Of a DNA stretch of 54,354 nucleotides, positions 2,452-15,626 are shown one piece after another. Location of the stretch: positions 1 through 54,354 of the forward strand of contig JAGKSX010000094.1 of assembly GCA_018993155.1 (NCBI GenBank), in the 5' to 3' direction. The position numbers and the translations under genes are program-made. How positions within the stretch are numbered: the first letter of the stretch is position 1; every line of letters starts with the position of its first letter. The notes under the pieces were generated by a model, which made no database searches, was not told where the DNA came from, and was given only the letters and a program-made list of their open reading frames with translations. This DNA comes from Hydrogenophaga sp. GTDB lineage: Bacteria; Pseudomonadota; Gammaproteobacteria; Burkholderiales; Burkholderiaceae_C.

Positions 2452-3108
2452 ATGGGCAGCACTTTCATCGAAAACATGCGCACCTCGGTAGACGCACAGT
2501 GGGGCGAGATCAAGCAGGGTGTGTTCTGGTGCCGGGTGATGGAACGTCCGGTCACCCTCGGGTTCTATCGGGACCTGATGCTTCAGATGTGGCATCACTC
2601 GCGGCACAACGCGATGAACCAGGCTGTCGCCACCTTTGTGCCGGCACCTGAGGCCTTGCTGAAGTTCTTCTACCGTCAGGCAGCGGAAGAACTCGGCCAC
2701 GAGCGCATGGTGGTACACGACCTGAAGAGCATTGGCATTTACGACGAGACCGACTTGAATCGCCCGCCGTTGCCAGCCACCGAAGCGCTGATCGGCTATC
2801 TCTACTATGTGGGGTTGCGTTACGGCGCGGTGGCTCGCTTGGGGTACAGCTTCTGGGCTGAGCGGTCTCACGATCACGTCAAGGAACTGATCGCCAAGAT
2901 CAGTGACGATCTGAACCTTGCGCATCAGGACGTCACGTTTTTCAGCAAACATGCGCAGGCCGACCTGATGCAGGCCTTCCAGGTGGAACAAGCCCTGGAG
3001 CGATTTGCGATCAGTTCCCGGGAGCAGGAACTTGCCCGGCAAGTGGCCACCACAAGCCTGTTCCTGACCGGCCAGCTGCTGAATCAGGCGGCGGTTCGAC
3101 ACCTCTGA
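2452..3108 (+). CDS. Heme-oxygenase-like di-iron (HDO superfamily) protein of unknown substrate
   Basis: 218 residues, all-helical by composition and resembling the TenA/PqqC/heme-oxygenase-like fold annotated as iron-containing redox enzymes. Candidate metal ligands are Glu80-x2-His83 in EELGHERMVVHD, Glu137 in FWAERSHDH, and His167-x3-Asp171 in FFSKHAQAD. The family usually has another His three residues after that Asp; here it is Gln174, so the metal site may be altered. GAGGAGG lies just before the ATG. The gene is solitary, with selO divergent upstream and an araC-type gene convergent downstream. Known relatives do oxidative C-C or N-O chemistry (UndA, SznF, CADD), but no reaction can be assigned here. 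Confidence 0.7.
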   Translation: MGSTFIENMRTSVDAQWGEIKQGVFWCRVMERPVTLGFYRDLMLQMWHHSRHNAMNQAVATFVPAPEALLKFFYRQAAEELGHERMVVHDLKSIGIYDETDLNRPPLPATEALIGYLYYVGLRYGAVARLGYSFWAERSHDHVKELIAKISDDLNLAHQDVTFFSKHAQADLMQAFQVEQALERFAISSREQELARQVATTSLFLTGQLLNQAAVRHL

Positions 3109-3137: not shown

Positions 3138-4211
3138 TCAGGCCAGCGGCTCGGCCTCGGCCAGCCGCGCGCGGTACTGGCCCGGTGACACGCCGAACCA
3201 GCGTTTGTTGGCGCGGAAGAAGTTGCTCTGGTCGGCAAAGCCCAGCAGGTCGGCCACCTGGGCCAGGGTGTAGCGGTCTTCGGCCAGGTATTTCTGCGCC
3301 AGGTCGCGCCGGGCGTCGTCGAGCAACTGCTGGAAGTTGGTGTCTTCCTCGCGCAGGCGGCGCTGCAGGGTGCGGTCGGCCATGGCCAGGCTGCTGGCGA
3401 TGTCTTCGCGGCGCGGCTCGCCCAGGTGCAGGCGGTGGATGATTTCCTCGGTCACGCGCTGGCCGGTGCTGGCATGGCCCAGCCGCACCAGGCGCGATTC
3501 GATCACGCGCTGGTGCATGTCGAACAGCACCGGGTCGCTGGAGAGCAGCGGCATCTCCAGGTCCCGGTTGGTCAGCAGCAGCCGGTTGCGCGGCTGGCCG
3601 AAGCGCACCGGGCAGCCGAACGCGGCCACGTAGGGGCGGGCATCCGCCGGCTCGGGGTCGACGAACTCCACCGCCTGGGGCTGCACGTCGCGCCGCGTGA
3701 TCCAGCGGCACAGCGTGGCCACGGTCAGCAGGCTGTATTCCAGCCGCTGGCGCGGCAGCGGCCGGGTGTTGCCGATCAGGCCCAGCACCATCCACTGGTT
3801 GCTGCCGTCGGGTTCGAGGTCGAGCGTGATTGCGTCCGAGATCACGGCGTAGTAGCGCGAGAGGTTCATCAGCCCGGCCTTGAGGGTCGGGCTGGCCAGC
3901 ATCACGTAACCCACCATGTCGAAGTTGACATGCCGCGCCGGCAGCTCGCGGTCCATGCCCAGGGCCGGGTTGCCCGACCAGGCCACCGCCAATTCCCACA
4001 GGCGCGTGATGTCATCGACTTCCACCCGACCGTCCGGGTCCTGCAACAGGGCGTCATCGATGCGCGCGCCGGCCAGCAGGCGCGGCGCGTCCAGGCCCCG
4101 GGAGGCGAACATGTCGGCGAGGCATCTGACCCAGAGGGCGGAGCTGCTTCTTCGGCTGGGGTGGTGGCGTCGTGAAGTCACTCGATTGGTCGTGTTGCGA
4201 TAGCGGCGCAT
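3138..4211 (-). CDS. AraC-family transcriptional regulator (arabinose-binding-type N-terminus)
   Basis: About 357 residues. The N-terminal ~200 residues match the AraC N-terminal ligand-binding type found in OruR/VirF-like regulators. The C-terminus carries two helix-turn-helix units, including EDIASSLAMADRTLQRRLRE and LAQVADLLGFADQSNFFRAN, followed by the GVSPGQYR signature. The start at 4211 (MRRYRN) has AGGA 11 bases upstream; an ATG at 4271 is less likely because it overlaps the intergenic region. It is divergent from the esterase gene at 4332 with a gap of about 120 bases, so control of the esterase and acyl-CoA ligase is a reasonable inference. Confidence 0.88.
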   Translation of the reverse strand: MRRYRNTTNRVTSRRHHPSRRSSSALWVRCLADMFASRGLDAPRLLAGARIDDALLQDPDGRVEVDDITRLWELAVAWSGNPALGMDRELPARHVNFDMVGYVMLASPTLKAGLMNLSRYYAVISDAITLDLEPDGSNQWMVLGLIGNTRPLPRQRLEYSLLTVATLCRWITRRDVQPQAVEFVDPEPADARPYVAAFGCPVRFGQPRNRLLLTNRDLEMPLLSSDPVLFDMHQRVIESRLVRLGHASTGQRVTEEIIHRLHLGEPRREDIASSLAMADRTLQRRLREEDTNFQQLLDDARRDLAQKYLAEDRYTLAQVADLLGFADQSNFFRANKRWFGVSPGQYRARLAEAEPLA

Positions 4212-12513: not shown

Positions 12514-13208
12514 TGCTCAAGATCGAAAACCTCCACGCCTACTACGGCAAGAGCCACGTCCTGCACGGCGTGAGCTTTGACGTGCAGCCCGGCGAGATCG
12601 TCGCGCTGCTGGGCCGCAACGGCTCGGGCCGCTCCACCACCGCCAAGGCCGTCATGGGCCTGGTGGAATGCCAGGGCAGCATCCACTGGAAGGGCCAGCA
12701 GATCATGGGCAAGAAAGCCTATGAGGTGGCCCACCTGGGCCTGGGCTACGTGCCCGAGAACCGCGACATCTTCCCCACGCTCACCGTGCACCAGAACCTG
12801 ATGCTGGGGCAGAAGGGCAGCGGCAAGGGCTCGCGCTGGAGCTTCGAGGACATGTACGGCATGTTCCCGCGCCTGCGCGAGCGCCAGCACACCGAAGCGG
12901 GCGTGCTCTCGGGCGGCGAGCAGCAGATGCTCACCCTGTGCCGCACCCTCATGGGCGACCCCGACCTCATCATCATCGACGAGCCCACCGAGGGCCTGGC
13001 GCCCAAGATCGTGGAGCTGGTCGGCCAGTACCTGCAGACGCTCAAGTCGCGCGGGATCTCGGTGCTGCTGATCGAGCAGAAGCTCACCATCGCCATGGCG
13101 ATTTCCGACCGCGCGCTGGTCATGGGGCACGGCAGCATCGTGTTCCAGGGCACGCCGGAGAGCCTGCGCGCCGATCCTTACACCCGCAAGGAGTGGCTGG
13201 AGGTCTGA
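12513..13208 (+). CDS. livF: ABC transporter ATP-binding protein LivF with Arg in Walker A
   Basis: 231 residues of the LivF family. Walker A reads GRNGSGRST, with Arg40 (codon CGC at 12630-12632) where the nucleotide-binding Lys is expected. The other motifs look intact: LSGGEQQMLTLCRTL signature, LIIIDEPTEG Walker B and IEQK in the switch region. The start overlaps the livG stop. The last 31 bases overlap the 3' end of the convergent sensor kinase gene. The substitution could be a lineage-wide variant that keeps partial nucleotide binding; this cannot be judged from one sequence. Confidence 0.92.
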   Translation: MLKIENLHAYYGKSHVLHGVSFDVQPGEIVALLGRNGSGRSTTAKAVMGLVECQGSIHWKGQQIMGKKAYEVAHLGLGYVPENRDIFPTLTVHQNLMLGQKGSGKGSRWSFEDMYGMFPRLRERQHTEAGVLSGGEQQMLTLCRTLMGDPDLIIIDEPTEGLAPKIVELVGQYLQTLKSRGISVLLIEQKLTIAMAISDRALVMGHGSIVFQGTPESLRADPYTRKEWLEV

Positions 13209-14860
13209 TTCAGCGAGGTGCGGAGCGCGGTCGTCAGCGCATCGACATCGATGGGCTTGCCCAGCACGCCCTGCATGCCGGCTTCCCGGGCCTCTGCAAG
13301 CACATCCGCCGAATCGTCTGCCGTGAGTGCGAGCACCGGTACGCGGCCGGCGGCACCCGGTAGGGCTCTCAGCCGGCGCGTGGTGCTCATGCCATCGAGC
13401 CCGGGCATGCTCATGTCCATCAGCACGATGTCTGGCATGGCGCCACCTTGCAGCATGTCCAGCGCCTGTTGGCCGTGCTCGGCCTCCAGCACGGTCATGC
13501 CCAGGCTGGCGGTCACCGTGCGCGCGACGCTGCGGTTGAACCAAATGTCATCGACGATCAAGACGGTGTGACCCTTCAGCGAGGGCATCGGCTCCGGCAT
13601 GGCGGGTGCGGCTTGGGCGGGTGCGGGTGCCGGCGAGGGGCAGGATGGCAGGTTGATCGTGAACTCGGTGAAGTGGCCGTGCTCTGATCGGCAGGCAATG
13701 GCGCCGCCCCACTCGTGAATGGTTCTGTAGCAGAAGGCCAGCCCCAGGCCCGTGCCCTCGGCCTTGCCATGGGTCTGGAATTCCTGAAAGAGGCGGCTCA
13801 ACACGTCGGGCGGAATGCCTGGGCCGGTGTCACGCACCACGATGCAGGTGGTCGGCGTGGTTTTCACCGTGACGCCGATCTCCATGGTGGGACGCACAGG
13901 CAGGTAGTACAGCGCGTTCTTCAACAGGTTGAACAGCATCAGCTCGAACGTGGTGGCATCGCCTTGGAAGTGGAAGTCTTCTTCGACCCGCAGATGCACG
14001 CATTCGCGGGCTTCGGGCGAGTCGTAGGCGTACTCGTCCAAAGCCTTGCGAGCGCACTGCTCCGCGGACAAGGGCCGCAGCTCCAGTGGCGCTGGTTTGC
14101 GGTGGCTGACCTGCCGCAATGTGATGGTGATGGACTGCAGGCCGCGCTGGATGGCGGAGTGGCCCTGACGGACGAGGCGTGCTGCCTCCGAGTCGGGGGA
14201 GACCTCGGCCTCGATGCAGCGAAAGACGTGCTGGATCTGGGCCAAGGGGGTGCGCATTTCGTGGGCGACGGAGCCGGCGAGGCCGGCGTACAGGCGGCGC
14301 ATGCGTTCGAGTTCTGCTCGCTTCTCCACGTACTTGGAAATGCTGCCGCAAGCAACCAAAACTCCGCACATGGGTATCCACCAGAGAATGAAATCGATGG
14401 GTAGATGAGGGGTGGATACCGTTGCCCAGAAAACCGCCACGCTAAGTGCATATCCGCTGCTCAGCACAATGATGGTGTTACGCCAATCCGTTAGCAAGAC
14501 GATCAACGCCGCGCTCCATATCATGTTCACCACTGTCGGAGTCGCCGCCTTGTTGTGCAGCATGGTTAGCGGGAGCAGAAACGCAAGACAGTAAAAAATG
14601 GTGAAGTAGGAGTAGGCGAAGTAGTAGGGCTGTGCTGCGCTCGGCCATCTCCTTCGCAGCGCAAGTACTGCGCACAAGACGGTGGCCACGATTCGCCATC
14701 CAATATCGTCGTACAGCACCGGGAAGTTGCTGTTCATGCGAAGGAGGTAGAGCAGGGGGAAGGCAACCGCGCCTACGGCTCCGATCCATTCCAAGAGAGA
14801 TCTGTTGGCTTCGTGGTGGCGTACGTATCGTGCGAAAAGGTCGCGCATTAGTTTCCCCAT
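13178..14860 (-). CDS. Hybrid sensor histidine kinase with CqsS/PhcS-like membrane sensor and receiver domain
   Basis: 560 residues. Residues ~20-172 form about six membrane helices with short loops, like the sensors of CqsS, LqsS and PhcS, which detect small lipophilic autoinducers. The kinase core has an H-box with phosphoacceptor His200 (SVAHEMRTPL), N-box NLLKNALYY (~311-319), G1 DTGPGIP (344) and G2 GTGLGLAF. A Pro/Ala linker leads to a receiver with Asp482 (LMDMSMPGLDG) and Lys535. There is no DNA-binding output domain. The start could also be the ATG at 14848. A sigma70 promoter and an inverted repeat lie just upstream, and the upstream gene encodes a putative signal synthase. The N-terminal half is visibly less GC-rich than its neighbours. 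Confidence 0.88.
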   Translation of the reverse strand: MGKLMRDLFARYVRHHEANRSLLEWIGAVGAVAFPLLYLLRMNSNFPVLYDDIGWRIVATVLCAVLALRRRWPSAAQPYYFAYSYFTIFYCLAFLLPLTMLHNKAATPTVVNMIWSAALIVLLTDWRNTIIVLSSGYALSVAVFWATVSTPHLPIDFILWWIPMCGVLVACGSISKYVEKRAELERMRRLYAGLAGSVAHEMRTPLAQIQHVFRCIEAEVSPDSEAARLVRQGHSAIQRGLQSITITLRQVSHRKPAPLELRPLSAEQCARKALDEYAYDSPEARECVHLRVEEDFHFQGDATTFELMLFNLLKNALYYLPVRPTMEIGVTVKTTPTTCIVVRDTGPGIPPDVLSRLFQEFQTHGKAEGTGLGLAFCYRTIHEWGGAIACRSEHGHFTEFTINLPSCPSPAPAPAQAAPAMPEPMPSLKGHTVLIVDDIWFNRSVARTVTASLGMTVLEAEHGQQALDMLQGGAMPDIVLMDMSMPGLDGMSTTRRLRALPGAAGRVPVLALTADDSADVLAEAREAGMQGVLGKPIDVDALTTALRTSLNQTSSHSLRV

Positions 14861-14895
14861 GTTTTCACCGTATGTTCCATTGATGAATGAATTGT

Positions 14896-14928
14896 TTAAA
14901 CCTTTGGTGTTTTATTGCAAAGGTTTAA
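14896..14928 (-). promoter_or_regulatory. Perfect inverted repeat in the kinase leader
   Basis: Arms TTAAACCTTTG (14896-14906) and CAAAGGTTTAA (14918-14928) are perfectly complementary over 11 bp, separated by 11 bases. On the kinase strand it lies just downstream of the predicted transcription start and about 35 bases before the start codon. It could be an operator for a dimeric regulator or an RNA stem controlling translation. Confidence 0.6.
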
Positions 14929-14943
14929 TCCTAGAAAACTGGA

Positions 14944-14973
14944 ACTATAGATTTAATTTTATGTATTCGTCAA
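14944..14973 (-). promoter_or_regulatory. Sigma70-type promoter of the sensor kinase
   Basis: Read on the minus strand, TTGACG (14973-14968) is followed after 18 bases by TATAGT (14949-14944), each matching consensus at 5 of 6 positions. The -35 box contains the TGA stop codon of the upstream synthase gene. Predicted transcription starts near 14937, giving a leader of about 77 bases. Confidence 0.65.
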
Positions 14974-15626
14974 TGGAGGATCCGTACAACATCAACTGCC
15001 TGGCCCAGCACCAATACAAAGGGCTCTCCACTCTTGCCTTGCATGTGCATGACGACGTGCAGCCCAAACCGCCTCCATAGGCGTGCCATCGCTGGCGAGG
15101 CGATCGCGTAGAACTGACGCACCGGGTGTCGACGTGTCAGCTCACCCATTGCCAAGTTCAGGCAACTCGTCAGCGTCTGAAAGCTTCTTTCTCGGGGATC
15201 CACGATCAGGCGTCCTACTTCCCAGCTCCCTGGCTCTAGCAACGGGAGCGTTGCGCCAGTGAGCTGCATCAGGCGCTCACCCCCCGTCAGGCCATGGCCA
15301 CTTGGTACGCATCGCAGGGTTCCGATAGCGCGGGAGCCCCGGAAGATCGCAGTCACCACACCGATTTCGTCTCTGTCGCGCTCAAATGGACTGAGCTGCA
15401 AACCCAGGTCGTCTTCTACGCCGGCAGGTGCGTATTGCCGCAATTCCGTGATCGCTACGCGCTCTTGTGGTGTTCCCAGCACGCGCGTGTTCAGCTGTAG
15501 TGACGGATTGGTATCTCCTATTGACGTGACCTGACGAAGGGCGGGCCTAGCGAGAAGGTGGGATGGCCAAGTGGGTGCTTGACGGTGGACGGGAAGTAGA
15601 TGGTGGGACTGTTCGGTGTTGTGCAT
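14970..15626 (-). CDS. Putative autoinducer / N-acyl amino acid synthase (LuxI-FeeM-like GNAT fold)
   Basis: 218 residues. The C-terminal ~170 residues fit the LuxI/FeeM branch of the GNAT fold: acidic pair Asp84/Asp86, GTLR with Arg105, and WEVGRLIVDP with Glu136-x2-Arg139. The Arg105-Glu136-Arg139 spacing (31 and 3) equals that of the conserved Arg, Glu and Arg of LuxI-type synthases as I recall them. Such enzymes join an acyl chain from acyl-ACP or acyl-CoA to an amino donor. AAGGAG lies 5 bases before the ATG. The gene is followed by the hybrid sensor kinase on the same strand. The acyl donor, the amino acceptor and even signalling function are inference; a housekeeping N-acyltransferase is the alternative. 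Confidence 0.7.
   Translation of the reverse strand: MHNTEQSHHLLPVHRQAPTWPSHLLARPALRQVTSIGDTNPSLQLNTRVLGTPQERVAITELRQYAPAGVEDDLGLQLSPFERDRDEIGVVTAIFRGSRAIGTLRCVPSGHGLTGGERLMQLTGATLPLLEPGSWEVGRLIVDPRERSFQTLTSCLNLAMGELTRRHPVRQFYAIASPAMARLWRRFGLHVVMHMQGKSGEPFVLVLGQAVDVVRILH

Follow-up and report, generated by a model that had tools for sequence, protein, structure and literature searches.

A LuxI/FeeM-like acyltransferase gene beside an LqsS/CqsS-type sensor kinase gene in Hydrogenophaga: a putative signalling pair with a frameshift candidate in its sister clade

The window analysed here is a 54,354-nucleotide stretch of a Hydrogenophaga sp. genome (GenBank assembly GCA_018993155.1, contig JAGKSX010000094.1), and two neighbouring minus-strand genes within it probably form a self-contained cell-cell signalling pair. 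The first, P0001 (14970-15626), encodes in a single frame a 218-amino-acid LuxI/FeeM-like acyltransferase of the GNAT fold, a putative signal synthase; the second, P0002 (13178-14860), follows 109 bp downstream on the same strand and encodes a 560-amino-acid hybrid histidine kinase in which an LqsS/CqsS-type sensor, predicted to comprise six transmembrane (TM) helices, precedes HisKA and HATPase domains and one receiver domain (REC). The pair unites the enzyme fold of LuxI and FeeM with the receptor class of CqsS and LqsS. An earlier note on this DNA, made from the letters alone, had proposed this combination as new, and we found no description of it in the open-access literature.

Sequence kinship of the synthase

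By sequence, P0001 belongs with LuxI and FeeM. The coordinates of the 218-residue protein are confirmed, and the Arg105, Glu136 and Arg139 that the earlier note had picked out are, together with Asp86 and Gly138, invariant in two family alignments that partly overlap in their members. Residues D86, R105, E136 and R139 align to identical residues of the acyl-homoserine lactone (AHL) synthase TofI. We take the Glu and Arg of the WExxR motif, the Arg on the preceding strand and the Asp of the acidic motif to be the LuxI catalytic-site positions, and this pattern is present in the P0001 family. TofI is also the sole significant PDB sequence for two family profiles (E 4.7e-4 and 2.5e-6) and, with RpaI, the closest solved sequence to the family profile. 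With the FeeM Pfam family (PF21926), 9 of 11 members of the P0001 family give a match at E<=1, the best at 1.1e-8; among four synthase parts from a sister clade two exceed its cut-off of 27 bits (31.9 and 37.2) and two fall below it (25.4 and 26.0).

Structure comparison, put forward earlier as a check on this kinship, bore out the GNAT fold and left LuxI/FeeM and other GNATs tied; because of that tie it was dropped as arbiter between them, and the LuxI/FeeM assignment comes from sequence profiles. An NCBIfam scan of P0001 returned only a PEP-CTERM-associated acyltransferase (E 0.008, far under its cut-off), and a plasmid search with P0001 gave zero matches.

Architecture and kinship of the sensor kinase

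The earlier description of P0002 as a same-strand, six-helix hybrid kinase using His200 and Asp482 holds up well. Both residues are invariant in a kinase alignment of seven sequences, the hydropathy peaks, which partly overlap, are consistent with six membrane helices, and an AlphaFold2 model places long helices at residues 20-43, 53-67, 74-102, 107-123, 126-147 and 161-184 after an N-terminal helix at 2-18. This predicted membrane sensor module occupies residues 1-185 (14306-14860, minus strand). Pfam recognizes HATPase_c (8e-21) and Response_reg (2e-23), with HisKA under its cut-off (21.8 against 26.9 bits). Several longer relatives carry an extra receiver and further C-terminal parts, including an Hpt domain in L062.

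The CqsS-type character claimed for the kinase is supported by the company its homologues keep. A profile built from the sensor part only (A5) was run against 273 other genomes of the class and detected kinases in 14; we inspected 16 stretches around them, most neighbours being named by reading. Two contain an alpha-hydroxyketone-type autoinducer synthase (NF005526, cut-off 428 bits) near the kinase, at 482 bits in L127 and 584 bits in L130. An LqsR-like protein of about 310-350 amino acids, likewise assigned by reading, adjoins the kinase in 10 of the 16 (L117, L118, L120, L122, L124-L126, L128-L130); that of L130, the sole one of the ten scanned for domains, contains Response_reg at 3.3e-8. 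Within the family the sensor is present in 13 of 200 genomes, own included, and five of six weaker family sensors (L149, L151-L154) lie in clusters read as regulator, kinase and pyridoxal phosphate (PLP)-dependent synthase, L150 being ambiguous. By sequence, homology links the P0002 sensor to kinases whose genes adjoin those of alpha-hydroxyketone synthases (LqsA/CqsA).

Compared with the PDB, the sensor fold gave nothing significant; the best match was the mycobacterial adenylyl cyclase Rv1625c (E 0.11), which has a six-TM anchor. The accessible text of PMC4821796 describes this anchor being swapped for a Vibrio harveyi quorum-sensing receptor, and the likeness of the modelled sensor to Rv1625c may be taken as a hint only.

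Linkage and co-divergence of the pair

When loci from Hydrogenophaga, Ramlibacter and other Burkholderiaceae are pooled and deduplicated, the kinase gene lies downstream of the GNAT gene in 49 of 50 distinct genes, and the adjacency is therefore not due to chance. The earlier note had asked for such a survey and had named rare co-occurrence as grounds for abandoning the pair; we found the opposite. In two genus-level surveys the kinase sensor is downstream on the same strand in 32/32 loci, and in 4 of the 49 pairs a long start-to-start distance reflects an intervening oxidase gene. Synthase and sensor distances are strongly correlated (Mantel r 0.87, n=47 pairs, with 0 of 2000 permutations as high), a value uncorrected for common descent, and the correlation is 0.80 inside the frameshift clade described below and 0.92 inside the in-frame set; two of the 49 pairs, being short pieces, were omitted from this test and from the tree. 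Ramlibacter monticola (L042, 3236-8412) carries two tandem GNAT-kinase pairs that fall on different branches of the in-frame group.

An order-wide survey for the enzyme returned 1 of 399 genomes, the window's own, and the analysis was therefore confined to the family. The enzyme occurs in 10 loci of named genomes, in 2 of 87 genomes of another genus (both already among the family survey matches) and, within a single genus, in 43 of 60 species genomes. We take this genus to be Ramlibacter because the part of its locus L078 that was compared shows no difference from the Ramlibacter locus L044. The pair thereby hints at new extracellular signals in a genus where the synthase is widespread. Of the 52 rows that this last survey produced, we retained 30 with loci and L159 (G860, contig 125), leaving out the other 21; a second row from G852 should correspond to the second pair of L042. 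Duplicates were removed as identical stretches (L065, L068 and L078, equal to L045, L042 and L044), as the same place in the same genome (L066, L067, L071, L081, L095 and L096, equal to L057, L056, L062, L063, L055 and L060) or as further repeats (L047, L049 and L052, equal to L017, L018 and L048).

A candidate programmed frameshift in the sister clade

In many relatives homology to P0001 does not begin until residue 83, the start of the gene being encoded in another frame. Across 34 distinct split loci (L019, L051, L055-L063, L159 and 22 of L069-L094) the two synthase parts join in the -1 register at a GAA-AAA-AAA tract, which is A8 in 33 and A9 in one. The slippery heptamer A_AAA_AAA stands at the frame junction in every one of them, and the junction sequence GAAAAAAAAGAGA is found in 32. 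The shifted reading gives ...EKKRDE..., to which the window protein has the in-frame equivalent ...ERDRDE.... The 223,694 bases of these loci contain 38 A/T runs of at least eight, and this figure includes the 34 tracts. Both parts are open in 34/34 loci, with a stop in the C-terminal frame no more than 27 nt upstream in 10. Joined products score better against the in-frame profile in all 34 cases, with a mean gain of 18.6 bits in a comparison that had no other-frame control.

Both parts look to be under purifying selection. Each varies most at third codon positions of its own frame (0.46/0.38/0.56 for the N-terminal and 0.36/0.30/0.56 for the C-terminal part), and the ratio of nonsynonymous to synonymous substitution rates (dN/dS) is about 0.08-0.56 in the 12 closest pairs listed, of 59 for the N-terminal and of 114 for the C-terminal part, these pairs not being independent. 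Internal initiation of the C-terminal part was rejected as a general explanation because an ATG or GTG with a Shine-Dalgarno-like 4-mer lies within 60 nt in only 2 of 34 loci (the scan covered ATG and GTG, with TTG excluded). In a 47-row tree, a split with support 100/99 separates 32 frameshift rows and L054 from 14 in-frame rows that include the window; L054 is nested inside the frameshift clade yet is read in frame, and with the root at the midpoint, one gain and one loss of the shift make the simplest story.

The case that sequence makes for programmed frameshifting in the sister-clade gene is strong. Our reading is that this autoinducer-synthase-like gene undergoes either programmed frameshifting or slippage during transcription; ribosomal -1 frameshifting and RNA-polymerase slippage at A_AAA_AAA predict an identical protein. 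Both processes have precedents. The accessible part of PMC4066793 reports A_AAA_AAA in a proven insertion sequence (IS) cluster, accompanied there by a stem-loop, and also one proven IS frameshift case with no established stimulator; that of PMC1088944 describes slippage, with selection evident at runs of nine A or T in many genomes. We consider it very unlikely that the split genes are instead pseudogenes, errors of sequencing or genes switched ON and OFF by phase variation. Such an explanation could draw on the likely hypermutability of long A runs (PMC1088944, in the portion accessible), on the in-frame L054 within the split clade, and on the A8 tract, for which no conserved downstream RNA structure or Shine-Dalgarno-like stimulator was found when compared with simple, not dinucleotide-preserving, shuffles. 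What speaks against decay or error is that all 34 loci retain both the register and the GAA-AAA-AAA codons, although AAA accounts for no more than 257 of the 1801 Lys codons among genes called at these loci (AGA is 22 of 4176 Arg codons), that dN/dS is below 1 in the closest pairs on both sides of the junction, and that the split loci include single-contig assemblies (G369 and G892). Phase variation was rejected, as 0 of the 34 tract-bearing loci are in the in-frame 'on' register that it should produce in some; the single A9 (L063) is an equal-length substitution relative to its sister L094 and not an indel.

Comparison with known systems

The closest parallels to the receptor side are LqsA-LqsS-LqsR and CqsA-CqsS, in which a homologous six-TM sensor kinase is likewise encoded beside the gene of a small-molecule synthase. 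The synthases themselves differ, since those of the LqsA/CqsA systems are PLP-dependent and that of the window is a GNAT-fold acyltransferase. Unlike Lqs, the window pair was seen to have no adjacent LqsR-type gene, and the genome's own lqs-like cluster, read as PLP synthase, LqsR-like regulator and LqsS-like kinase, is on a separate contig (contig 77; L157, 3946-7501). The genome has two strong sensors, in the window and on contig 64. With LuxI-LuxR the pair shares the enzyme fold, the conserved Arg/Glu/Arg/Asp positions and TofI as nearest solved sequence, but it differs in its membrane kinase partner and in P0001 scoring under the LuxI Pfam cut-off. It also differs in the receptor: the earlier remark that no LuxR-type gene is nearby extends to the whole genome (about 94% complete), where the LuxR-type Autoind_bind domain (PF03472) yields nothing.

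The likeness to FeeM-type enzymes is that their Pfam family matches most relatives of P0001. Those treated in PMC4897644 contain a PilZ domain and produce N-acyltyrosines that are surfactants, with no receptor kinase mentioned in the accessible text; nor did we find an open-access paper joining FeeM and a histidine kinase. As that text calls the function of such enzymes still not clear, pairing with a kinase offers a possible purpose for them. The PhcB-PhcS-PhcR(-PhcQ) system offers a further likeness: PhcR has receiver and kinase domains (PMC10653808, as far as its accessible text goes), the architecture of a third protein that lies beyond the kinase in seven sister-clade loci (including the query, L062, the only one domain-scanned). 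PhcB is a methyltransferase, however, and the window pair has no adjacent third gene.

If the frameshift is real, the sister-clade gene would be the first case known to us in which recoding yields an autoinducer synthase. A signal synthase is not mentioned among recoded genes in the accessible portions of PMC3711429 and PMC5009743, nor in the literature searched. The latter source, in that portion, does describe FseA, produced by a frameshift in a mobile element controlled by quorum sensing and proposed to damp noise. FseA also links frameshifting to a quorum-sensing circuit, but its shift is +1 and not -1, and its product is an excision activator and not a signal synthase.

Proposed mechanism and alternatives

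In the mechanism that we propose, the GNAT-fold enzyme would move an acyl group from acyl carrier protein or coenzyme A to the amine of a small molecule, with an amino acid or some other small amine a likelier acceptor than an S-adenosylmethionine (SAM)-derived homoserine lactone. Once outside the cell, the lipidic product would be recognized by the six-TM domain in the adjacent LqsS/CqsS-type kinase. Binding would alter phosphorylation of the receiver within that kinase (from His200 to Asp482), and the signal would pass to a downstream regulator by way of an Hpt protein whose gene lies elsewhere. In the sister clade the synthase would seemingly be made only via the -1 frameshift or slippage at the fixed A8 tract, a requirement that would keep its level low. 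A fuller reading makes of this a new Gram-negative quorum-sensing type, in which a GNAT acyl-amine synthase is joined to an LqsS/CqsS kinase, one clade makes its synthase by the A8 -1 shift, the output of signal thereby depends on how two consecutive AAA lysine codons are decoded, and a haem-oxygenase-like oxidase tailoring the signal and a PhcR-like relay are optional; we regard this fuller version as evenly poised between right and wrong.

Several observations weigh against a signalling pair. The product, the ligand and the phenotype are all putative. P0001 itself scores under the Pfam cut-offs for FeeM (14.9 against 27 bits) and Autoind_synth (PF00765; 13.8 against 24), reaches TofI as a single query only at E 0.4, and forms a long, fast-evolving branch (1.07) in the family tree; fold comparison leaves LuxI/FeeM tied with ordinary acetyltransferases. 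The Pfam scan of P0002 gives no Hpt domain, whereas longer relatives differ. The enzyme is sporadic, being found in 5 of 100 relatives and in 19 of 399 genomes of the family, own genome included in each, with 12 of the 19 strong and the 7 weak ones (E 5e-5 to 8e-4) left out of further work. The GNAT gene of L015 (the same as L046) has no adjacent kinase, and two closely related sensors, L020 and L156, have no adjacent GNAT; a third candidate, L155, runs off its contig end and is not countable. The lone GNAT gene of L015/L046 adjoins cydAB, where the window's own genome (L020, contig 64) has a kinase without a GNAT; we read the two as complementary remains of one pair.

Two other explanations of the pair can be set beside a signalling function. 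The acyltransferase might modify or lipidate a cell component, yielding an amino-acid lipid, a biosurfactant or a membrane lipid, and the kinase might sense membrane or envelope state, so that the two would be linked without a signal. We think this unlikely. In its favour, many non-signalling GNATs are among the fold matches, and the physiological function of N-acyl amino acids from FeeM-type enzymes remains unclear in PMC4897644. However, the sensor's relatives adjoin dedicated autoinducer synthases, and the co-divergence of synthase and sensor fits a ligand pair, even if common descent would give the same. Less likely still is an AHL system resembling LuxM-LuxN, with an acyl-homoserine lactone as the enzyme's product and a membrane kinase detecting it. 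TofI and RpaI as closest solved sequences would agree with it, as would the best NCBIfam match of the kinase core, which is LuxN (E 6e-65, residues 185-552 only). The Pfam scores point the other way, with P0001 under the Autoind_synth cut-off, its relatives scoring higher with FeeM than with Autoind_synth, and a PF00765 search of the window's own genome giving nothing above cut-off. LuxI has a conserved N-terminal Trp of its SAM-binding region in the stretch equivalent to R63-D86, and no conserved Trp lies there in the two family alignments.

Genomic setting and accessory genes

The GC content at third codon positions is 0.63 in P0001 and 0.79 in P0002, against 0.91-0.96 in the neighbours (0.94-0.96 in the flanking genes), which suggests transfer or unusual codon selection; a simple gene caller used on the window missed P0001 and shortened P0002. 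An AAGGAG lies 6-11 bases upstream of the P0001 ATG, and the 109-bp intergenic spacer (14861-14969, minus strand) is AT-rich (29% GC). Scans of the window for promoters and terminators gave chance level only, a single sigma-70-like match at the spacer (14973-14944) not exceeding chance expectation, and an Rfam scan of the window found no match above gathering score. By reading, the pair is flanked by an operon for a branched-chain amino-acid ABC transporter on one side and a gene for enoyl-CoA hydratase/hydroxyacyl-CoA dehydrogenase on the other, and the identical two flanks surround it in L016-L018 (same genus), L042-L045 (Ramlibacter), L048, L050 and L053.

Elsewhere in the window, an orphan haem-oxygenase-like (PF14518) oxidase gene (2452-3108, plus strand) encodes a protein with 54-64% identity to four oxidases of related GNAT-kinase operons. 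It stands between a SelO-like gene, named by reading (789-2285), and an AraC-type regulator gene (3138-4112), the same kinds of neighbour, by reading, between which L063 has a GNAT gene, a kinase gene and a response regulator/kinase gene; the window oxidase is probably the leftover of a second system. Of 46 loci, 10 encode a PF14518-like protein within the operon or next to it, as does L073, which is outside that count. This count and that of the receiver-plus-kinase proteins are lower bounds, because many loci have flanks of only about 1.5 kb; in L019, L051 and L060, whose flanks are long, neither protein was seen. PF14518 proteins also adjoin LqsS-type kinases in three distant genomes of the class (L123, 5820-6533; L125, 4547-5275; L131, 4157-4843). 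It is possible that the PF14518 protein is a general partner of the LqsS-type receptor class.

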